The notes below the pieces were generated by a model. The model ran no database searches. It worked only from the letters and a program-made list of their open reading frames with translations, and had not been told where the DNA came from. From a virus: a stretch of DNA of 30,087 nt. The position numbers and the translations under genes are program-made. The stretch spans positions 1-30,087 of IMG/VR virus record IMGVR_UViG_3300042509_002091, one strand, 5' to 3'. Of this stretch, positions 3,738-22,110 are shown piece by piece. Positions within the stretch are counted from its first letter, which is position 1; each line of letters opens with the position of its first letter.

Positions 3738-4165
3738 CAGGCCACCGTCAGCAGGCTTGCGCCGAAGTCGAGCGTGAAGGTCTCCGTATCGGCCAATGTG
3801 ATGCTTGACCCGTAGTCCAGATAGCCGACCAGAGCATCCGTAGGGCTGGACGCCGTGTCGTTGTAGATCACCACATAGCGGAACGGCCCGACAGTACCAC
3901 CGGAAGCCGTTAGGGTAGCGTCTGTCGCCGTCATAGTGCCCGTGCCGCCCGTTTCCGTGTAGCCTGTCGTGAGGGCTATTCCACCGCCAGCGCCGCCCGT
4001 ATAGCCACCGCCCGTCGAAAGCTGCGTAATGTCGGAAAGCTGGACATGCGTTGCCGCATTCGGCGCGCTATTGGTCAATGCAGCCTTGAACGTATTCGAG
4101 GCGAGGTTATGCACGCCCTTGCCAAGCTGTTCCTTGAAGTCCTGATAGAGCGTCAATGTCGCCAT
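3737..4165 (-). CDS. Small beta-rich phage structural protein
   Basis: A 142-residue protein starting MATLTLYQDFKEQLGKGVHNL and continuing with NTFKAALTN and a GGGYTGGAGGG segment, then alternating short strands. This N-terminal pattern (a small helix, GVHN, ALTN, then LSDITQ) is familiar from phage structural proteins of unassigned function, usually near portal or tail genes. It starts right at the end of the portal gene (TAATG-type junction at 4165). I read it as a virion protein, perhaps a decoration or neck component. It is too short for a major capsid protein and lacks the helix-rich HK97-like profile. Confidence 0.65.
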   Translation of the reverse strand: MATLTLYQDFKEQLGKGVHNLASNTFKAALTNSAPNAATHVQLSDITQLSTGGGYTGGAGGGIALTTGYTETGGTGTMTATDATLTASGGTVGPFRYVVIYNDTASSPTDALVGYLDYGSSITLADTETFTLDFGASLLTVA

Positions 4166-6546
4166 TAGTTCATCACCGTTTCAACGCCCATCACGCGCCC
4201 GTCAGGGCCGCGAACAGCACGCTTGGGAGCCGATATCGCCTTAACCAAGGTAGCCAAGACTTCCTCGGACTTGTCCTGTCGCTGGTCCAGCTTATCAATT
4301 GCCGCAACGAGCTTTTGAGAGACTTCATTGATAGCCGTGGAATGTTGGGCACGCTGTTCGCTATCCGTGGCATCCGCTTCCGTTTTGCGGCCTTCGTTTT
4401 CAAGCTGGCGCTTTTTGCCTTCCAGATCGACCTTGGAATGTTCAACCTTGAGCATCCTGTCTTCTTCTTCCAGCGAATCGGGGCCGGGTTCGGGCTTGCT
4501 TAACTCGCGGTCTTTAAGTTCAAGCTCACGACCTTTCATCTGGCTTTCCTGACCCTTCAATTGAAGTTCGATTTCCTTCAACCGCAGGTCCATTTGCTTG
4601 AGCTTCAATTCCTCGCCCTTAATGGCGATTTCAGCCTGTGACTTGCGCTCTTCGCCAGCCATCCGGCGTTCTTCCATCGCCGCTTCATGCTTCATCTTCT
4701 CAACTTCGGGATTAGGCGGCTTTGGCTGCGAAGCGATTTGCTTCACATTGTCCGCAAATTCCTCGATTGCGCCTTCAAGCTGCCTGCCAGCCCTGAACCC
4801 TGCCGCCACGAATTTAAGCGTCTCTGTCGCCAAGGGAGCCGCCTGCGGCATGGCCTGAACGAGCGGAAACGCCTGCTGGATAAAGCCGCCGATGGCCGTC
4901 ACGAACTCCGTCCGGCGCTGCTTTTCAGCATTCTCGTCCGGCGTAATCGTGCTGTCCGTCTCGATATCAATGACGCAGGGCCGGGTACGCTCTTGGCGTA
5001 GCAGATTGACAACCTGCTCAATCGTTACCGGCAGCTTGGGTTGCGGTGGGGGCGGCACAGGCTGGCCGCTCATCTTGGCCTGCAATGCCGCGCTTTGATA
5101 CTGCTGCTGTATCTGCGCCATCTGCTGCTGATTGGCCGCTTCCGTCGCCATATCCATCTGCGACATGGTGAGCAAGGTTTGCGGCTGGAAGTTCTCAGCG
5201 ATAATCTCAGCGCCGATCCGGGTCAGGTCACGGGCAACGCGGACCATTTCGGCTTGGCGTTCCTTGATCCTGATTGACCCATACTGCGATTTAAGCTGCT
5301 GCGCTCCGAGTGTTTCGCTGGCTTCCGTATCGCCCCGCATAATATCTGATATGCCGGTAATCTGGTAAACGTCGCTGATGATTTCCTTGCGGAGCGCGAC
5401 CAGTTCCTTGATGGTGATAGCGACTTCCTGCACGGGAAGCCACAGCACCGAATCCTTGAGCGAACCACCGGCTATCAAATGCGCCGCGACGGGCACTAGA
5501 ATGGCCGAATTGTCCTGCGTCTTGAGCGCCTTTTCAATCGCGCCGGTTACGCCTTCCTCGCCATTGGCATAAAAGCCCTTCATGCGCAGGGAATTGGCTA
5601 GTCCGGCAATGCGCCCGGTCAGCTCGTTTATTTCTTCAATCTGGTCCCGATAGTACACATAATCAGGAACCGGAATGAGCGTCCCGCGCTGTAACGTGCC
5701 ATAGGCAGGCTTGGGACAGGGAAAAAACCCGTCAAGGCTTAGAAACGGCTCCTGAATGTCGAGAACAGATTCAACACCCTTCGACACCCAAACGACGAGA
5801 CGCTTGCTCTTGGACCAGAGTTCCCAGACAGCCGCTTTTTTCTCAGCGTCGTAGCTTGCGCCATCGTCCGGCTTGTATTCGCGGTATTCCATCGACGTAA
5901 CAAGCGACAGTTTACCCTTGTCAATCTCTTGCGTCTCAGGATCGGTCGCGAACCGCTTGATGGCTTCATCGCGGGACAGGAACGAACGGCGACCAACCCA
6001 GCCGACCTCTTTCCACTTGCGCGCGGGTTCATGCAGGAAGTCCTTGCGGTCGATATGGTCGTAACAGACCTTCTCCTCCGCGCCGCCGTCGTCGTAATTA
6101 TAAACCTCATACCGCGCCCATGCGCAGCCACGGCCAGTGATGGCAAGGTCGTCACGAACCTCTTTCAACGCCTCATGGACGTTATCCAGATCGAAGTTCG
6201 TTGACAGCGTGCGTTCGAGGATTTCACTAGCTGCCCTCGGCAGTTCGCGAAGGTCTTTGAACCTCGGCACAACCACGGGCTGCGGAGCGCGGGCGTAGAT
6301 GGAAGGCTTGATGACTTCCAGATTGGCCCAAAACATCTGGAATTCGCGGTCTGTTTTCAGCTTCGCCTTTTCTTCCAGATTTGAATAGAGCTTCTCGATG
6401 CTGTCGCACTTCTCCTGGTAGGACTGAAAAGCCTTCTCAGCCGCCGTTATGGCGTCCAGCCACGGCTTGGCGTCCTGCATGTCTGCAAAACGGGCATCCG
6501 CTGCCGGGTCTGTAGCTGGTTTGCTGCTTTCAGCGCCTTGTTCCAT
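4165..6546 (-). CDS. Portal protein, P22-like
   Basis: A 793-residue protein directly after the large terminase gene. The first 520 residues look like a portal of the P22/podovirus type: an early helical segment (FQSYQEKCDSIEKLYSN), then a long mixed region containing PDYVYYRDQIEEINELTGRI and QITGISDIMRGDTEASETLG, the latter typical of the portal stem and crown. Residues from about 590 to 790 are long charged helices with repeated KQMDLRLKEIELQLK-type heptads, longer than in many portals, possibly an extended barrel or a coiled coil. The portal forms the dodecameric ring at the capsid vertex through which DNA is packaged. No scaffold or capsid gene follows it, which is unusual. Confidence 0.88.
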   Translation of the reverse strand: MEQGAESSKPATDPAADARFADMQDAKPWLDAITAAEKAFQSYQEKCDSIEKLYSNLEEKAKLKTDREFQMFWANLEVIKPSIYARAPQPVVVPRFKDLRELPRAASEILERTLSTNFDLDNVHEALKEVRDDLAITGRGCAWARYEVYNYDDGGAEEKVCYDHIDRKDFLHEPARKWKEVGWVGRRSFLSRDEAIKRFATDPETQEIDKGKLSLVTSMEYREYKPDDGASYDAEKKAAVWELWSKSKRLVVWVSKGVESVLDIQEPFLSLDGFFPCPKPAYGTLQRGTLIPVPDYVYYRDQIEEINELTGRIAGLANSLRMKGFYANGEEGVTGAIEKALKTQDNSAILVPVAAHLIAGGSLKDSVLWLPVQEVAITIKELVALRKEIISDVYQITGISDIMRGDTEASETLGAQQLKSQYGSIRIKERQAEMVRVARDLTRIGAEIIAENFQPQTLLTMSQMDMATEAANQQQMAQIQQQYQSAALQAKMSGQPVPPPPQPKLPVTIEQVVNLLRQERTRPCVIDIETDSTITPDENAEKQRRTEFVTAIGGFIQQAFPLVQAMPQAAPLATETLKFVAAGFRAGRQLEGAIEEFADNVKQIASQPKPPNPEVEKMKHEAAMEERRMAGEERKSQAEIAIKGEELKLKQMDLRLKEIELQLKGQESQMKGRELELKDRELSKPEPGPDSLEEEDRMLKVEHSKVDLEGKKRQLENEGRKTEADATDSEQRAQHSTAINEVSQKLVAAIDKLDQRQDKSEEVLATLVKAISAPKRAVRGPDGRVMGVETVMN

Positions 6547-7901
6547 TAAATGCGAATCCTGTAATCGCCTGATATCGGGTCAGGCGGGCCGGGCAGATAG
6601 ACTTGCCCCGGCTGTGGTTTCGGCTTGTCGTCGGCTATCTCTGTCGGTGCTGAACGCCATGCCATCGCCATGTAGCGAAAGGCATCCGCCGCGTGACTGG
6701 TCCAGTCATGCACAGGGTTCATACCGAACGTGCGGGCGTCCTCGTCCCATTCACGCCGGTATTGCTCCAAGGCTTCGATGCCGTTGTTTGTGCGAGGGTG
6801 GAACACACAGAGCGGCAAGGTTTTACGAGCCGCCGCGATACCGTCCAAGACCTTGTTCTGTGGCAGGACAACCGGCTTCAAGCCACAATCCCGCATTTGC
6901 TCAACCCGCCCGCGCTTCATACCCCAAATCTGTTGCCGGGCATCGTGCGGTACATAGTCAATGCCTCTAGCCCAAGGCTTGGACAGGCAGACCTCGGCGT
7001 AATGCTCGATATCTGCCCCGTGGCTCATGTAGAAGTCGAGAATGAATATCTGGCTTCCGACAACCTGAAACCACCAGATGGCCGTGCTATCGACCTTGCC
7101 CAAGTCCCATGCTGTATGGACGGGACGGGACGGGTCAGGCGCTATCTCGTCAATCCTGCCCTCAGTCCGTACCGCCAGCATTTGCTTGGCGTAGAAGGCC
7201 CCGAGAATGGCCGCATTGAACGAGCAATGATATTCCTGATCTATCTGCGCTTGGGCTAGGTCTTCGTCCCCATATAGCCCGATGTAGTCAGACAGCGCCG
7301 CGTCAATCTGCTCTTTCGTGAGGGCGTTCGTGGCACTGACGGGAGATAGCTCGGCAAACCAGCGGTCTTTGTTCCGCATGGCTTCGTTGTACATATTGTA
7401 GGCGTGGTTGCGACCGCGTGGCGTGGTGATGAATGCCGCCCAACCGTCGTTCTCCTCAACCATTGGCCTGTGGTAGCCCCAGGCATTGGGGTTAGCCAAA
7501 GCCCATTCGGAATAGACTATGCCGACCGGCCCTGCCCCCACCGTGGCGTCATAGCGGTCTGAGCCGATAAGCTGCCAAGTGGACCCGCATTTGAAGCGGA
7601 TGAACATTTCTTGGTCGTTCGTGCTGTCCCTGATTTCAGGGGGAAACGCCTCGTCTATCCTTCGCTTGCCGGTATGGGCGTTTACGCTGGTCCAGATGGC
7701 CTTGCGAGCCTGTGCGTATTCAGGCAGGCAATGCCAATAGGTGCCGATCCGCTTATGTGCCCAATCGCGAGTAGCGTTCAGGGCTATTTCGTCCTTGCCC
7801 CATCGCCTATGGGCTATTTCAATCAGGCGCTTTTTACTACCAGATACCCATGTCTTATGAAATGCTTGCTGATATGGCCGGACGCGGAATTGATGGATCA
7901 T
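6546..7901 (-). CDS. terL: Terminase large subunit
   Basis: A 451-residue packaging motor. The ATPase domain has a Walker A-like motif HRRWGKDE (residues 31-38), and a Walker B-like stretch VGIVYSEWA with the likely catalytic Glu at about 132. The C-terminal nuclease domain shows AWDLGKVDST (Asp at about 266 and 271) and DWTSHAADAFRY near residue 405, the usual acidic cluster of the RNase H-like terminase nuclease. The start overlaps the small-subunit stop (ATGA at 7901), and the stop overlaps the portal start (TAATG at 6546), so the three are tightly coupled. Together with the small subunit it recognises, cuts and pumps phage DNA into the prohead. Confidence 0.92.
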   Translation of the reverse strand: MIHQFRVRPYQQAFHKTWVSGSKKRLIEIAHRRWGKDEIALNATRDWAHKRIGTYWHCLPEYAQARKAIWTSVNAHTGKRRIDEAFPPEIRDSTNDQEMFIRFKCGSTWQLIGSDRYDATVGAGPVGIVYSEWALANPNAWGYHRPMVEENDGWAAFITTPRGRNHAYNMYNEAMRNKDRWFAELSPVSATNALTKEQIDAALSDYIGLYGDEDLAQAQIDQEYHCSFNAAILGAFYAKQMLAVRTEGRIDEIAPDPSRPVHTAWDLGKVDSTAIWWFQVVGSQIFILDFYMSHGADIEHYAEVCLSKPWARGIDYVPHDARQQIWGMKRGRVEQMRDCGLKPVVLPQNKVLDGIAAARKTLPLCVFHPRTNNGIEALEQYRREWDEDARTFGMNPVHDWTSHAADAFRYMAMAWRSAPTEIADDKPKPQPGQVYLPGPPDPISGDYRIRI

Positions 7902-8170
7902 TCATAGATCGTCTGGAATACGATTGCGCCGCCGTCGGGACCGGAAACCTTATTGTCCACCGAGGCAAGCCGGGCGTGAACGTAAGGCGCAGCGGCCTTT
8001 GCCGCGTCCAGCCTCACGCCAAACTCTTTGTTCTCGTCCCTCATAGCCGCAAGCAGGAAGTCCAAGGGCAATTCGCCGCCCTGTACCGCCTTGGCCCGCG
8101 CCTCTGCGTTTAGCTGATTTGCCCCGCCAGCCTTGCGACCAGCGTTCTGCCTAGCTCCTCCGCGCGGCAT
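7898..8170 (-). CDS. terS: Terminase small subunit
   Basis: A 90-residue protein starting MPRGGARQNAGRKAGG, the typical basic N-terminus of many small terminases, followed by GELPLDFLLAAMRDEN and AAKAAAPYVHARLASVDNK, also characteristic of this family. I placed the start at the ATG at 8170; a TTG at 8194 would add eight residues but has its GAGG far too close. The gene overlaps the upstream 72-residue frame and its stop overlaps the large terminase start. Small terminases bind the packaging site as oligomers and deliver DNA to the large subunit. Confidence 0.82.
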   Translation of the reverse strand: MPRGGARQNAGRKAGGANQLNAEARAKAVQGGELPLDFLLAAMRDENKEFGVRLDAAKAAAPYVHARLASVDNKVSGPDGGAIVFQTIYE

Positions 8171-8369
8171 TTTGAATCTTTGAAAGTTTTTCAAAGCCTC
8201 GGGTGGCTTCGACTATCTTGCGGCGGTCTGACCTCGCTTCGTGCATGGCCTGATAAATGGCCTGAACGATACGTTCGGCAGTCCAGCAGCCATCTTCCCG
8301 ATGAATAGAATATTGGATTTGATCATACCGGCTCACGCCAGCTTCGATCTGCTTTTTCGATAGCAGCAT
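8151..8369 (-). CDS. Small helical protein upstream of the terminase genes
   Basis: A 72-residue, charged, helix-rich protein (SKKQIEAGVSRYDQIQYSIHRE, then CWTAERIVQAIYQAMHEARSDRRK). The ATG at 8369 has GAGGT 7 bases ahead. Its end overlaps the first 20 bases of the small terminase gene, so the two are probably coupled. I do not recognise the family. Being first in the packaging group it could assist packaging or be a late regulator, but nothing in the sequence shows which. Confidence 0.55.
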   Translation of the reverse strand: MLLSKKQIEAGVSRYDQIQYSIHREDGCWTAERIVQAIYQAMHEARSDRRKIVEATRGFEKLSKIQNAARRS

Positions 8370-8533
8370 GATTTACCTCGCCGGTCTGAGCGGCAGCGAT
8401 TACGCTGTGTGTTGCCTCACGGGTATATCCGCCTATGGGGCGGGGAGAACTAGACCATATACGCTTTCGCGTTTCGCGAATTGCCGAATATGCTCCATAT
8501 CCCTAGCTTGCTTTAGCTGGCCCCGGAGGGGGA
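8370..8533. other. Short non-coding gap with hairpins
   Basis: No convincing gene. It contains a CCGCC / GGCGG hairpin near 8430, the 8-bp palindrome TTCGCGAA near 8472-8480, and a CCCC-GGA-GGGG inverted repeat near 8521-8532. On the minus strand these lie between the zinc-binding-type gene and the 72-residue gene and could be an attenuator or leader structure of the late transcript. Confidence 0.3.
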
Positions 8534-8698
8534 TTAGGCTGAAATCCGTATCGCCTTGTACCGCCGCATTTCCTTTATATCCGCAGAACGGCGCAGCTTA
8601 GATCGGAAATCGGTGGCGTCACAGCACATGCAAGCCAGCATCTTGGTCCGCTTGCCTCTGAGGTTGATATTGCCGCAATGCCTGTAAGAGGATTTCAT
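8534..8698 (-). CDS. 54-residue Cys/His zinc-binding-type protein
   Basis: A small frame beginning MKSSYRHCGNINLRGKRTK. The ATG at 8698 follows GACGAGGG with good spacing. His7-Cys8 and a later ACMCCDATDF cluster look like a compact zinc ribbon or knuckle, and the rest is basic and helical (KLRRSADIKEMRRYK). I have seen short phage proteins with this C-G-C-C plus basic tail arrangement, usually annotated as hypothetical. It lies between the NusG paralog and the packaging genes in a region with regulatory-looking sites, so a nucleic-acid-binding role is possible but unproven. Confidence 0.55.
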   Translation of the reverse strand: MKSSYRHCGNINLRGKRTKMLACMCCDATDFRSKLRRSADIKEMRRYKAIRISA

Positions 8699-9007
8699 GA
8701 CACCCTCGTCGCCCCTTCGGGCCGATAGATTATCGCCTTGATTATCAAATCAGGTCGATAGTGATAATCAAACAAACTTGATTGCAACAAGACGAACTCA
8801 AGGGCTGATTGGTCCCCGGATATAGCGCCGGGGGCGCTGGAATTGGATGCCCCATCATGCCCGGCTAGGTGCACCACCGAACAGACGCCCCGTACTCGGG
8901 CGGCGGCTTGACGATCCTGTTTCCCTTGCGGGCGATCCATCAGAGGCCGGGACCATTCTTGAATTGCAGCAGCACAGGCGCATCTTTCGATGCCCTGCGC
9001 TTTAAAG
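8699..9007. other. Region without a clear gene between NusG paralog and late genes
   Basis: An 81-residue minus frame (8695-8940) spans most of it and ends in ATGA shared with the next gene, but its composition looks only partly protein-like. In another minus frame a more protein-like stretch (PVLLQFKNGPGL, a TGA stop, then WIARKGNRIVKPPPEYGASV) suggests a decayed small gene. The AT-rich part at 8724-8790 carries repeated GATTATC/GATAATC sites and looks regulatory. I cannot choose firmly between a real 81-residue gene and a leader region. Confidence 0.3.
8728..8784 (-). promoter_or_regulatory. Cluster of GATTATC/GATAATC sites, possible late promoter or operator
   Basis: An AT-rich island in GC-rich sequence. 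GATTATC occurs at 8728-8734 and at 8740-8746, the latter inside the odd palindrome TTGATTATCAA (8738-8748). The inverted form GATAATC is at 8763-8769, and a partial TTGATTG is at 8778-8784. Repeats in both orientations next to the start of the packaging genes suggest a protein-binding site or promoter for leftward late transcription. No consensus -35/-10 pair is clear. Confidence 0.35.
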
Positions 9008-9688
9008 CTAAGCCGGTGCGCGGCTGTGCCGACTGGCTACCCGCTCAACCTGTTCGATCTCAAATTCCGTGGGTACGGACTGACCGAACAAGCTCAAGAA
9101 TACGCCGATCCGGTCCGGCCTGTCAACCTTGTGGATAAGAGCTTCCACACCCGCGAATGGCCCAACTGTCGGCCTGACCACATCGCCAACCTTGTACGGG
9201 TTCGTCTGCTCAACCTTGAACGGCCCCGCGTTCCGGAATGGCGCTATCTGGCTATCAGGGACGACCGTAGGCAGGCCGTCTTCGGAAACCGACACAATGC
9301 CGAGTATTCCGTCTTCGCCCATCAGCGCCCGCCACAGACGCCCACACATGGCAAGGCGGACGAAGATGTAGCCGGGGAAGTACGCCCGCTCGATGGACTT
9401 GAATTGCAGCTTTCCCCTGGTACGCCCGCGACCGTTCCGGATGGCAAAGGTCAGCTTTTCGATGGGCGTAAACGCCTCGTACTTGTGGGCTATCAGCTTT
9501 TCGACCATCGCCTTTTCGTTTCTAGGCATGGTCTGGACAGCGTACCAGCCCTCCTTGCCTATCCAGCCATCTTGCCCGCTCCCTTGCGATAGAAATAGCC
9601 CACGAGCGCCCTTGCGTGCTTTGGCAAGGCGCTCGACATAATCGGGAAGCTCATACTCTACGCGGTGGCCGAGGCCGGTTGGAGTCAA
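9008..9688 (-). CDS. NusG-family transcription factor (phage paralog, likely antiterminator)
   Basis: A 226-residue protein with both NusG domains. The NGN domain spans about residues 46-132 (GWYAVQTMPRNEKAMVEKL, YFPGYIFVRL, then WRALMGEDGILGIV). A KOW-type SH3 domain lies at about 163-215 (YKVGDVVRPTVGPFAGVEAL, ending FEIEQVERV). The first 45 residues are an extra basic, mostly helical extension. The start is a TTG at 9688 overlapping the previous stop (TTGA), with GGAG 8 bases ahead. NusG paralogs such as RfaH and LoaP bind RNA polymerase and let it read through terminators of chosen operons. Its place, last in the early leftward operon and just ahead of the late genes, is where lambda has Q, so I infer control of late transcription. 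Confidence 0.88.
   Translation of the reverse strand: MTPTGLGHRVEYELPDYVERLAKARKGARGLFLSQGSGQDGWIGKEGWYAVQTMPRNEKAMVEKLIAHKYEAFTPIEKLTFAIRNGRGRTRGKLQFKSIERAYFPGYIFVRLAMCGRLWRALMGEDGILGIVSVSEDGLPTVVPDSQIAPFRNAGPFKVEQTNPYKVGDVVRPTVGPFAGVEALIHKVDRPDRIGVFLSLFGQSVPTEFEIEQVERVASRHSRAPA
9130..9138 (-). promoter_or_regulatory. Perfect DnaA box inside the NusG-paralog gene
   Basis: TTATCCACA on the minus strand, an exact match to the DnaA-box consensus. It codes for part of LIHKV in the KOW domain, so it may be chance. It is one of two exact boxes seen in the window; the other is at 11877-11885 in the same orientation. Confidence 0.4.
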
Positions 9689-9948
9689 GCGGATGGCTCC
9701 TTTGGGAGAATGTCTGCGATATCTCGTATGCAGGCATGGGCAGCATCTACACCTGCCGCCGCTTGATGGTCGCCGCCGTTATTGGCCTCGTCCCAGTCCT
9801 CATAAACAGCACTGCACTTATGCATTGCAGCCTTTAGAGCGTCACGCTGGATAGCGCGGATGAAGCCAGCCACCCCGCCGTATTGTTCGATTAGCTGCGG
9901 GATTTCCGTTTGCTCAAATTCCGCGTGCCATTCCTCTGCGCTTTTCAT
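9685..9948 (-). CDS. Small hypothetical phage protein
   Basis: An 87-residue, acidic, mostly helical protein (KSAEEWHAEFEQTEIPQLIEQ, then FIRAIQRDALKAAMHKCSAVYEDWDEA). Its ATG overlaps the methyltransferase stop and its own stop overlaps the TTG of the NusG paralog, so it is translated between them. Short proteins with an MKSAEEW start are common in phage replication operons, but I know no assigned function. The tight coupling to the NusG paralog is the only hint of a role. Confidence 0.6.
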   Translation of the reverse strand: MKSAEEWHAEFEQTEIPQLIEQYGGVAGFIRAIQRDALKAAMHKCSAVYEDWDEANNGGDHQAAAGVDAAHACIRDIADILPKEPSA

Positions 9949-10622
9949 ATCAAGCTCTCCTGCTTTGGCTTCGGTTGCGGGGCGGGGATGAATAGGTCAG
10001 GCCGCTTTAAGGCGTCCTCTATGCGGCGGCAGGCTATGTCGAAGTATTTCGGCTCGCGCTCGATGCCGATGAACTTGCGACCGAGTTTGACAGCGGCGAG
10101 GCCAGTGCTGGCCGATCCCATAAACGGGTCCAGCACAGTTCCGACGTCGACGGGCAAATGGCCAATAACCCATTCCATGACCGCAAGCGGCTTTTGCGTC
10201 GGGTGAAATTTGCCGCGATAGTCGCCCCGAGCCAGAGGGTCATAAACCAGAGTGCGGGCGTTCATGTTCATGCTGCACCACGCTAACTCGCACTCAGCAT
10301 AGGACCGATTCTTGAACCCCGCTCCCTTGTCCCAAACCAAAAAGCCCCTCGATGGCGGCAGATCAAAATAGTTGCCGCCAAAGATAATTTGATGCCTGCA
10401 TCGTTCACGTATCAGGGCTATATGCGCATGGCCGATTGGTTCATTATCCCAATTGAGCTTCTCAAAATCGTTTGCACCCTTGTAGCCCACGTTGCCGCCG
10501 TCCATCCCAATCCCATACGGCGGATCGGTCACGCAGGCATCGAACTCCCCAAGCGTAGGGAGGATTTCGAGCATGTCGCCCATCCAGCACTCGACCCCAT
10601 CGGCTAGAATTTCCCGCCTCAT
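9945..10622 (-). CDS. DNA adenine-N6 methyltransferase (beta-type motif order)
   Basis: About 225 residues when started at the ATG at 10622, which has GAGG 5 bases ahead and overlaps the preceding stop (ATGA). A longer upstream frame exists but is less likely. Motif IV is DPPYGIG (residues 33-39) and the AdoMet-binding motif I, DPFMGSASTGLAA, comes later (about residue 170); this order is that of beta-class N6-adenine or N4-cytosine enzymes. A GKFHPTQKP segment is also typical. No restriction gene is nearby, so it is an orphan enzyme, probably used to protect phage DNA or to mark control or replication sites. The target sequence cannot be read here. Confidence 0.85.
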   Translation of the reverse strand: MRREILADGVECWMGDMLEILPTLGEFDACVTDPPYGIGMDGGNVGYKGANDFEKLNWDNEPIGHAHIALIRERCRHQIIFGGNYFDLPPSRGFLVWDKGAGFKNRSYAECELAWCSMNMNARTLVYDPLARGDYRGKFHPTQKPLAVMEWVIGHLPVDVGTVLDPFMGSASTGLAAVKLGRKFIGIEREPKYFDIACRRIEDALKRPDLFIPAPQPKPKQESLI

Positions 10623-10792
10623 GCCTGCCTCGCGCAAATGAACTCGCCCAATGCACTCCACCGCCCATGCACAGGGCCAAGCGGCCACAGTTTGAACCCG
10701 CACCACCAGACCTGACAGAACAAGCCGTGCTTACCCTTCTCAAACTTGCCCGCCTCATGCAGCGGTATGTAGCGGATGAAGTCGCGGTTCAT
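10619..10792 (-). CDS. 57-residue Trp/Cys-rich small protein
   Basis: A small frame starting MNRDFIRYIPLHEAGKFEKG. Its ATG (10792) overlaps the stop of the replication protein (ATGA) and its TGA overlaps the methyltransferase start (ATGA), so it fits the operon exactly. The middle has CQVWWCGFKLWPLG, rich in Trp and Cys, which could be a small folded or zinc-associated motif. I do not recognise it. The perfect fit between its neighbours is the main support for its being real. Confidence 0.5.
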   Translation of the reverse strand: MNRDFIRYIPLHEAGKFEKGKHGLFCQVWWCGFKLWPLGPVHGRWSALGEFICARQA

Positions 10793-11499
10793 GCTGCACC
10801 TAGTTGCTGTTCTGGCGGAAACTCGCTCGGAAATACCCATCCGTCCGCCTTGTGGTCTTTCGAGAACGTGGTCGGCAGCGTCTTGCCCCGATACACCTGC
10901 CAAGCGTGCCAAGCCTCCGTGTCCTTCGCCACGAACACCTGACCGGGGCGCTCAATCGGACCAGGGGGCAGGTTTGACGCCGAAGTGATCGACGCAGGCT
11001 GGTCTAGCCACCGATCCTGATTGAGCCACGTCGATGGGTTGCACCACGCCCGGTCATCCGGCTTTCCGGCGATGTACCGCCGCAGGCCGTCCAGCATCGG
11101 GGCCAACTCCGACCGCTTCCGAGCGCGTTCGAACGCTTTCAGCGCATCCGCCTTGCCGACCTTGTGCGGATAGGCTGGCCAAAACTGATTTTCGAATTCG
11201 AGAGCGAGCGAAGCGCGTTCACGCGCGTTTTTTTCGGGGGGAGGGTTTGGGGGATTATAGGGGGGGGTGTGGGGGGGGGAAAAAGGGGGAAGGGAGGGGG
11301 GTGCTTTTTCTGCGGAATCTGCGGAATTCTGCGGAATGTTATTGCGCTTACGTTCCCTGTCAGCAGCGCGACGGCGTTCTGCCTGCTCGTCCTTAATGAC
11401 AACAGCATCGCGCTTCGCAAGTGCCTCCGCAACGCGACCAACCAATTCAGGGTCAGTCCCGGCGCGAACGAGGTCTGCTATCAGGGAAGCAACGCTCAT
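10789..11499 (-). CDS. O-like phage replication protein
   Basis: A 236-residue protein in three parts. The N-terminus (1-60) is helical and ends in a basic run (AERRRAADRERKRN). Residues of about 65-95 are a proline-rich linker (LPPFSPPHTPPYNPPNPPP). The C-terminal half has FWPAYPHKVGKADALKAFERARK, GLRRYIAGKP and WCNPSTWLNQDRWLD, a domain I know from replication proteins of alphaproteobacterial phages. A second short motif, EAWHAWQVYRGKTLPTTF followed by GWVFPSEFPP, ends the protein. I infer an origin-binding or helicase-loading role by position and resemblance. No DnaB-like helicase or primase is present, so the host replisome is probably recruited. Confidence 0.6.
   Translation of the reverse strand: MSVASLIADLVRAGTDPELVGRVAEALAKRDAVVIKDEQAERRRAADRERKRNNIPQNSADSAEKAPPSLPPFSPPHTPPYNPPNPPPEKNARERASLALEFENQFWPAYPHKVGKADALKAFERARKRSELAPMLDGLRRYIAGKPDDRAWCNPSTWLNQDRWLDQPASITSASNLPPGPIERPGQVFVAKDTEAWHAWQVYRGKTLPTTFSKDHKADGWVFPSEFPPEQQLGAA
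11236..11301 (+). other. Tract of G-runs with quadruplex potential
   Basis: Eight runs of G (lengths 6, 3, 5, 8, 9, 5, 3 and 6) separated by short A/T-containing spacers on the plus strand, that is, C-runs on the coding strand. It encodes the proline-rich linker of the replication protein. The density of runs far exceeds what proline codons require. It could form G-quadruplexes or act as a purine tract at an origin. Confidence 0.5.
11310..11337. repeat. Three 9-bp direct repeats (iteron-like)
   Basis: CTGCGGAAT occurs at 11310-11318, 11319-11327 and 11329-11337. The third copy is shifted by one base relative to the codon frame, so the repetition is at DNA level rather than a protein repeat. 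It lies next to the G-tract within the replication gene, a place that would suit an origin, as the iterons of lambda lie within gene O. Confidence 0.4.
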
Positions 11500-14717: not shown

Positions 14718-14800
14718 AAAAGCAGGAACACACACAAGCAGAAACGAACGATATCTCTTGGAGATCAGGCCAGAGCTATCGTTGACAGATTGAAGATGAC

Positions 14801-14835
14801 GCGGACGGCGGCAGGGGAGGACCACCGCCGTCCGC
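14801..14835. terminator. Perfect 11-bp hairpin in the leftward operon
   Basis: Arms GCGGACGGCGG (14801-14811) and CCGCCGTCCGC (14825-14835) pair perfectly around a 13-base loop. It lies in the 224-bp gap after the DUF551 gene on the minus strand. No U-run follows in the leftward direction, so it is not a classic intrinsic terminator. It may be an attenuator, a pause site or a binding structure, in about the place where lambda has tR1. The rest of the gap (14685-14908) shows no gene I can support. Confidence 0.4.
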
Positions 14836-14908
14836 AGGCTGGCGCGCGGGAGGGAGTGCAGGCCAGCAAAGAGGGTGAAGGGAATGACGGGAGGACAGGG
14901 CCACCATG

Positions 14909-21239: not shown

Positions 21240-21485
21240 ATGAAAATCCCCACACTAGAAGAAGCAGCAAAGAACTACGCACTTGAGGCGGCCCGCGCGT
21301 CTCATTTGACTGGTGAGCCGTTCGAAATCCTGACGGCCCACATTCTAAAGGCTATCCTGTCTTTTTCAGAAACGGTTCGCATGGAACGCGATGCTCTATC
21401 GTCTTTGCTATTGTCTGTTCAGGAGGAATGTATTTCCGCGAATATACGTGCAGGAGACGTGGAGCGGAAAACTGATGCTAAGTAA
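21240..21485 (+). CDS. Small helical hypothetical protein
   Basis: An 81-residue protein from the second of two close ATGs, which is better spaced from the GAGGG motif. It is mostly helical (PTLEEAAKNYALEAARASHL, EILTAHILKAILSFSETVRM). Not recognised. Confidence 0.5.
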   Translation: MKIPTLEEAAKNYALEAARASHLTGEPFEILTAHILKAILSFSETVRMERDALSSLLLSVQEECISANIRAGDVERKTDAK

Positions 21486-21530
21486 TTCAATCGGTTACAT
21501 GCGAAGCGCGCGCCCTTCACACGGGAACCA

Positions 21531-21544
21531 CTCCCGCGCGGGAG
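21531..21544. repeat. 14-bp palindrome ahead of the tRNA
   Basis: CTCCCGCGCGGGAG is a perfect palindrome 21 bases before the tRNA-Val gene. It could be a recombinase or regulator site, or part of a processing hairpin. Confidence 0.3.
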
Positions 21545-21565
21545 CTACGCAACCGGAAGTTGTCC

Positions 21566-21640
21566 GGGGGTGTAACTCAACGGCAGAGTGCCTCGTTCAC
21601 ATCGAGGAAGTAGCAGGTTCGACCCCTGCCACCCCCACCA
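21566..21640 (+). tRNA. tRNA-Val (anticodon CAC)
   Basis: A complete cloverleaf of 75 bases with the CCA end encoded. Acceptor arms GGGGGTG / CACCCCC (21566-21572, 21630-21636) pair perfectly. The D-stem is ACTC/GAGT, the anticodon stem CCTCG/CGAGG with loop TTCACAT (anticodon CAC at 21598-21600), and the T-stem GCAGG/CCTGC with loop TTCGACC. The discriminator base is A. It may supplement host tRNA or mark an integration site. An endonuclease frame reads through it. Confidence 0.92.
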
Positions 21641-21642
21641 CT

Positions 21643-22110
21643 TTCCTTCCACTTTCCCGGGGACTGTACGCCATCATTGACCGCGAGGACGCTTGGCGCG
21701 TTTCCGCGTATTCATGGTCGGCAAATGCGGTTTCCCCGGGCCGATACTATGCACAGACCAAGATAGCCGGAAAGAACCTGTATCTTCACAGGTTCATAAT
21801 CAATGCCGCGCAAAATCAGCTAGTTGACCATGTTAACGGCGACCGGCTTGATTGCCGCCGCAGTAACTTAAGGTTGGCGACCCCTAGCCAAAACTCAGCC
21901 AATTCCAAGCATCGGCCCGGGAGTTCCGGCTATCGCGGGGTGTATGCGATCTACGGACGTTTCAGAGCCAAAATACGGATTGGGAACCGCCAGAAAACCC
22001 TTGGCTATTTCCACACCGCCGAAGAAGCGGCGCGCGCCTACGACCGGGCAGCAATACAACTTCACGGCGAGTTCGCCGTCCTGAACTTCCCGGGGATGAC
22101 CTATGAGTGA
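21643..22110 (+). CDS. HNH homing endonuclease with AP2 DNA-binding domain (start unclear)
   Basis: The frame shows an HNH domain (LHRFIINAAQNQLVDHVNGD, then RLDCRRSNLRLATPSQN) and a C-terminal AP2-type DNA-binding domain (SGYRGVYAIYGRFRAKIR, LGYFHTAEEAARAYDRAA). Relatives usually start just before the RG-YA motif with a Met; here no ATG, GTG or TTG lies in frame between the tRNA CCA end and this motif. The open frame instead runs back through the whole tRNA to an ATG at 21499. So either it is a fragment lacking its own start, uses a rare start such as CTG (21664) or ATT (21676), or is translated through the tRNA. HNH-AP2 proteins are mobile endonucleases that cut and copy themselves into related phages. 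Confidence 0.75.
   Translation, partial: FLPLSRGLYAIIDREDAWRVSAYSWSANAVSPGRYYAQTKIAGKNLYLHRFIINAAQNQLVDHVNGDRLDCRRSNLRLATPSQNSANSKHRPGSSGYRGVYAIYGRFRAKIRIGNRQKTLGYFHTAEEAARAYDRAAIQLHGEFAVLNFPGMTYE

Follow-up and report, generated by a model that had tools for sequence, protein, structure and literature searches.

The window analysed here, a virus record of 30,087 bases from IMG/VR, carries on its minus strand a nusG paralog that closes the run of early and replication genes (Table 1). The order on that strand leads from a replication initiator (phrog_270) through a methyltransferase gene and an 87-aa ORF to nusG, and from there across a 308-nt leader, a 54-aa ORF and a 72-aa ORF to the genes for the small and large terminase subunits (TerS and TerL, about 1.1 kb further on) and the portal protein. 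The first-pass annotation, made from the letters of the sequence, had described nusG as the last gene before the terminase genes; this holds for the large genes, but strictly the 54-aa and 72-aa ORFs intervene. Scanning of the window genes, including a subset of the small ORFs, brought up no protein resembling N, Q or a sigma factor. Elsewhere in the window, an ORF at 21391-22110 that overlaps a tRNA-Val gene (21566-21640) resembles, with domains assigned by eye, an HNH plus AP2-domain homing endonuclease; it is near the integrase and may mark an attachment site or a homing element. The window's most stable short hairpin (14798-14840) sits in the early gene region.

Table 1. Genes and sequence features around the nusG paralog, in the order in which the minus strand is read.
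Feature	Position	Strand	Remarks
Replication initiator	10789..11499	minus	phrog_270; in phi3LM21 and Rivra a gene of this PHROG precedes nusG
DNA methyltransferase	9945..10706	minus	profile matches
87-aa ORF overlapping the nusG start	9685..9948	minus	missing from L001
nusG paralog, 226 aa	9008..9688	minus	TTG start; N-terminal extension 1-44, NGN 45-156, KOW 164-220
Candidate promoter-like TTGACA-18-TATTCT, 3' part of nusG	9097..9126	minus	10/12 consensus matches
Leader, nusG to next plausible ORF, 308 nt	8700..9007	minus	folding z-score -3.06
13-bp hairpin, GAAA loop	8971..9001	minus	begins 6 nt past the nusG stop
10-bp perfect inverted repeat TTGATTATCA-N14-TGATAATCAA	8738..8771	not assigned	
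54-aa ORF with CxxC motif	8534..8698	minus	no PHROG match
Pre-terminase 33-nt sequence	8413..8445	minus	100% in L371 (33 nt), 100% in L368 (31 nt)
72-aa ORF	8151..8369	minus	
Terminase small subunit-like (TerS)	7898..8194	minus	phrog_641, 2.3e-8
Terminase large subunit (TerL)	6546..7901	minus	phrog_2, 3.5e-19
Portal protein	4165..6546	minus	phrog_12082, 7e-200

The encoded protein is a member of the NusG superfamily with NGN and KOW domains, and at cutoff it falls outside the NCBIfam subfamilies NusG, RfaH, UpxY and LoaP. Pfam NusG (PF02357) is matched at 50.8 bits (cutoff 22.2, E 2.5e-13), and the 'transcription antiterminator' profile phrog_6386 is matched over its full length (9e-24, residues 43-217, profile positions 10-179 of 179), a match that is non-specific because host NusG is matched by the same profile. 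In the AlphaFold model the NGN domain is confident and compares with RfaH 8pen at Z 12.6 and with Bacillus subtilis NusG at Z 12.0; the KOW domain (about 164-220) forms a beta-barrel (Z 9.1 and 34% identity to the C-terminal domain, CTD, of Escherichia coli NusG), and the extension is mostly of low confidence, with a single helix at residues 15-28. Pfam, phrog_6386 and AlphaFold thus agree with the earlier description of a complete NGN-KOW protein preceded by about 45 extra residues, and the structure prediction of the NGN domain that had been proposed as a check returned a confident NGN fold. Scores against the subfamily models were below cutoff throughout: 64.2 bits for housekeeping NusG (TIGR00922, equivalog cutoff 135.7), 50.8 for RfaH (TIGR01955, equivalog cutoff 144.5), 40.2 for LoaP (NF033641, cutoff 125) and 58.3 for UpxY (NF033644, cutoff 100).

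The length of the extension hinges on the TTG start at 9688. This codon is the earliest start in the open frame, follows an AAAGGAG and overlaps the stop codon of the upstream 87-aa ORF; the next methionine is residue 54, within the NGN domain. The relative L001 lacks the 87-aa ORF and retains the TTG behind a GGAG. Alignment of L001 (1-105) with window positions 9685-9960 places a recombination joint at the nusG start codon, the record being otherwise 99.9% identical to the window.

A profile seeded with the window protein retrieved 63 viral loci, and TerL could be placed in 33 independent records (distances calculated from coordinates, three contigs being taken as circular and measured with wrap-around). 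In 30 of these 33 records TerL is found downstream of nusG, on the same strand and no more than 7 kb away, against 4.8 expected under random placement; on contigs of at least 30 kb the figure is 17/20 against 1.3 expected (P about 2e-18). The three records that break the pattern are L016 (11.9 kb), L059 (8.5 kb) and L065, a record of 193 kb. Distantly related phages therefore share, much more often than expected by chance, the late-antiterminator position that had been assigned to the gene on sight. A side observation concerns record L048, in which the TerL profile matches twice on one strand, at 44541-45194 and 51921-52616 (about 6.7 kb apart), pointing to a terminase gene interrupted by inserted DNA.

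Six named phages were examined: Sinorhizobium phages phi2LM21 and phi3LM21, Rhizobium phage PPF1, Mesorhizobium phage vB_MseS-P1, Agrobacterium phage Rivra and Nostoc phage Nsp-JY10, five of which have Rhizobiales hosts. Throughout, nusG closes the early run, overlaps the preceding gene and precedes the terminase genes (6/6; for PPF1 and Rivra the order was read across the record ends), and the preceding gene is annotated as a replication initiator or HTH protein in five and as hypothetical in the other. The main text of the paper on phi2LM21 and phi3LM21 does not mention antitermination (PMC5537653). In a 2025 paper on phiLM21-like Sinorhizobium prophages, the early region closes with an HNH gene and a gene annotated 'transcription antiterminator'; the paper stays at the level of annotation and its text does not name NusG (PMC12429752). 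Relatives of the window's TerL were accompanied by NusG in three of the 79 loci retrieved, many of these loci being too short to decide.

Comparison of the sequence after nusG across the six named phages revealed a conserved structured block, termed R1, composed of a stem (GCCYUGA/UCARGGC), an inner variable stem and RGUGC-NNN-AGCUAUG, and followed in most of them by a terminator of the form GGCGGCC...GGUCGCC-UUUU. We scanned a 23-nt pattern from this block through IMG/VR without reference to NusG. Among the matches listed, nusG ends 91-154 nt before the element in every one of the 73 loci that offer 700 nt or more upstream (the six named phages included), and an intrinsic terminator lies within 110 nt after the element in 66/75 cases, compared with 9/344 control stretches. 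Columns within the 23-nt pattern are conserved by construction; the pattern has no bearing on the 5' sides of the stems or on the terminator. Across 43 non-redundant element sequences from the matches listed, bases pair in 90.8% of cells, and the stems contain compensatory base changes: both sides changed in 43 cells, against a shuffled mean of 15.1, with none of 500 shuffles as high. Sliding the partners by one column lowered pairing to 44-48%, and an alternative pairing scheme scored worse. A sigma-70-like promoter between nusG and the element was found in none of 43 sequences of the element-bearing clade. The block is a conserved leader RNA without an earlier catalogue entry, the phage leaders having no Rfam match.

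The NusG proteins encoded beside this element form one clade that includes phi3LM21 (support 96/93), and the loci carrying it comprise at least L221-L300, L004 and L214-L218. A covariance model of R1 scored 77.9 bits on phi3LM21, which is a training sequence, and gave six weak matches (≤25 bits) in 385 alphaproteobacterial genomes, none of them near a NusG gene. In this related clade, then, the listed matches tie the gene to a leader RNA ahead of a terminator, in line with the logic of the first-pass annotation, and the arrangement suggests a NusG-based switch for late genes.

The window's own leader folds better than its shuffles and has no Rfam match. The earlier expectation that a matching element would lie in the leader at 8.37-9.0 kb was not borne out by the R1 model, whose best score in the window was 8.8 bits on the wrong strand, and the leader has no recognisable intrinsic terminator. 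A search for divergent R1 copies in the window, L007 and L045 likewise found none. The most stable local structure of the leader is the hairpin with the GAAA loop, which ranks as the eighth most stable 40-nt-window cluster over both strands. Hairpins are not a general feature after phage nusG genes, where z-scores show no difference from those of control genes (P 0.29), and an intrinsic terminator within 500 nt follows 8/56 phage nusG genes against 29/336 controls, so that a terminator is not the general rule outside the R1 clade. The half-site of the inverted repeat has six near-matches in the window, compared with 1.0 expected. The promoter-like sequence in nusG is weak, as seven such sites occur in the region against 4.1 expected. 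Two relatives, L001 and L135, are more than 99% identical to the window and thus too close for footprinting.

Phylogenetically, the window protein groups with that of phage L007 (99/72), outside the R1 clade and among other phage NusGs, a placement that is approximate because branches are long. In L007, its nearest neighbour in the tree, a clear intrinsic terminator follows nusG by 312 nt, before TerS and TerL, which lends some support to the same logic in the window group. The slot itself is exchangeable. In L368 (= L370) a 206-aa protein of phrog_21451 replaces NusG, while the first codons of nusG (window 9655-9687) and a 42-nt segment with the hairpin (window 8959-9000, 97.6% identical) are kept; L371 has the phrog_21451 protein and lacks the hairpin, and the pre-terminase sequence is common to the window, L368 and L371. 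Hairpin and pre-terminase sequence are thus not specific to NusG, since they accompany a non-NusG gene, and the idea that the strongest hairpin of the leader is the matching element is weakened. Two readings fit these exchanges: late regulators may replace one another in the slot, or the common sequences may be mere recombination boundaries. In two further records with related TerL (L137:1519-2085 and L138:5680-6258) the position ahead of the terminase genes is taken by phrog_15385, a candidate for another late regulator. Neither this protein of L137 and L138 nor the phrog_21451 protein of L368 was recognised as a known antiterminator.

The computed features, namely the protein family and fold, the gene position with its recurrence, and the leader RNA and terminator of the related clade, are best explained by a phage-encoded specialised NusG paralog that serves as processive antiterminator of the window's late operon, a reading to which we assign a probability of roughly 0.6. 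It is supported by the intact NGN-KOW architecture, the position relative to TerL, the leader coupling in the R1 clade and the lack of an N- or Q-like protein in the scanned genes, and a different protein in the L368 slot is expected of a swappable regulator. Against it stand a window leader devoid of both the R1 element and an intrinsic terminator, the scarcity of NusG among the retrieved loci with related TerL, many of them too short to decide, together with phrog_15385 in the slot of L137 and L138, and the cis sequences common to L368 and L371 that accompany a non-NusG gene. The reading is better supported for the R1 clade than for the window.

Mechanistically, NusG would be made as the final product of the early/replication operon and recruited through the leader after its own gene, where the NGN domain would bind and clamp the transcribing RNA polymerase during its passage. 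It would then stay on the polymerase while terminators or Rho sites are passed and the genes for terminase, portal and structural proteins are entered; their expression would depend on it, and it would so fill the role of lambda Q. For the R1 clade, we infer that polymerase coming from the early operon transcribes nusG and then the element and halts at the terminator, and that NusG, once accumulated, loads at the element and lets the polymerase read into the late genes. More broadly, temperate phages of a widespread class, chiefly those of Alphaproteobacteria, probably rely on a specialised NusG in place of N- and Q-type antiterminators. This NusG would load via a dedicated leader RNA (the two-stem element with GUGC-NNN-AGCUAUG) that follows nusG and precedes an intrinsic terminator, and the phage of the window would be a diverged member with a different signal.

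The gene could instead encode a phage copy of a general elongation factor, aiding or competing with host NusG on all transcripts, shielding of phage RNA from Rho included, without leader-specific loading. A KOW domain resembling that of E. coli NusG and a window in which no cognate element was found would suit such a factor; we nevertheless regard it as unlikely, given a score far under the NCBIfam NusG cutoff, a conserved pre-terminase position that a general factor does not need, and the dedicated leader RNA alongside the gene in the related clade. We are similarly doubtful of a late promoter in the 3' end of nusG, comparable to lambda pR', from which a short leader RNA would be made and the polymerase modified soon after initiation. 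The TTGACA-18-TATTCT sequence lies on the right strand with the GAAA-loop hairpin about 90 nt downstream, but promoter-like matches in the region are barely above chance, and the element-bearing clade has no sigma-70-like promoter between nusG and the element.

That nusG is a passenger travelling with the packaging module, with no part in late expression, would fit the recombination joints at its start in L001 and L368; since unrelated phages repeatedly have the gene at this position and one clade couples it to a leader element, this is quite improbable. Similarly improbable is that the element of the related clade is a cos or pac DNA packaging site beside the terminase rather than an RNA signal. 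In each of the six named phages the element does separate nusG from the terminase genes, yet its stems show compensatory pair changes, an intrinsic terminator comes directly after it, its association with nusG is strict among the matches listed, and it is conserved in phi2LM21 and phi3LM21 despite TerL proteins only 21% identical (PMC5537653).

If the late-antiterminator reading is true, it would add a third phage route to late antitermination besides the N and Q types and, next to the LoaP hairpin, another RNA cognate to a NusG paralog. It would also provide a compact cognate pair of RNA and terminator, testable in isolated phages such as Agrobacterium phage Rivra, and a function for many phage genes labelled just 'antitermination protein NusG'.

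Specialised NusG proteins serve capsule, antibiotic, virulence and conjugation operons, and in lambda and phage 21 Q is the last early gene, directly before the late genes. The Q proteins differ in having a fold unrelated to NusG and in loading at a promoter-proximal DNA element. Two reviews that were searched for mentions of phages (PMC7819879, PMC7593976) describe no phage in which a specialised NusG switches on that phage's late genes. Phage-like late antitermination in Alphaproteobacteria is represented by GafZ of the Caulobacter gene transfer agent, which is not a NusG and was reported to lack similarity to known antiterminators (PMC11150451). RfaH, also a specialised paralog, has the NGN fold in common with the window protein; its KOW domain forms a helical hairpin, whereas that of the window protein is modelled as a beta-barrel, though a fold-switcher can be modelled either way. 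UpxY of Bacteroides capsule operons is a NusG paralog encoded beside its target operon and acting on the leader (PMC7819879); upxY comes after its leader, phage nusG before. Comparable in layout is LoaP of Bacillus velezensis, likewise a specialised NusG paralog, whose dfn leader presents a hairpin RNA, an intrinsic terminator, that of dfnA, and a long operon, in the order seen in the related phage clade (PMC12691694). LoaP and dfn involve a UNCG hairpin and antibiotic operons, the phage clade a two-stem element with GUGC-NNN-AGCUAUG and phage late genes. The logic proposed for the R1 clade is therefore that of LoaP and dfn (PMC12691694), placed at the position of the Q gene.
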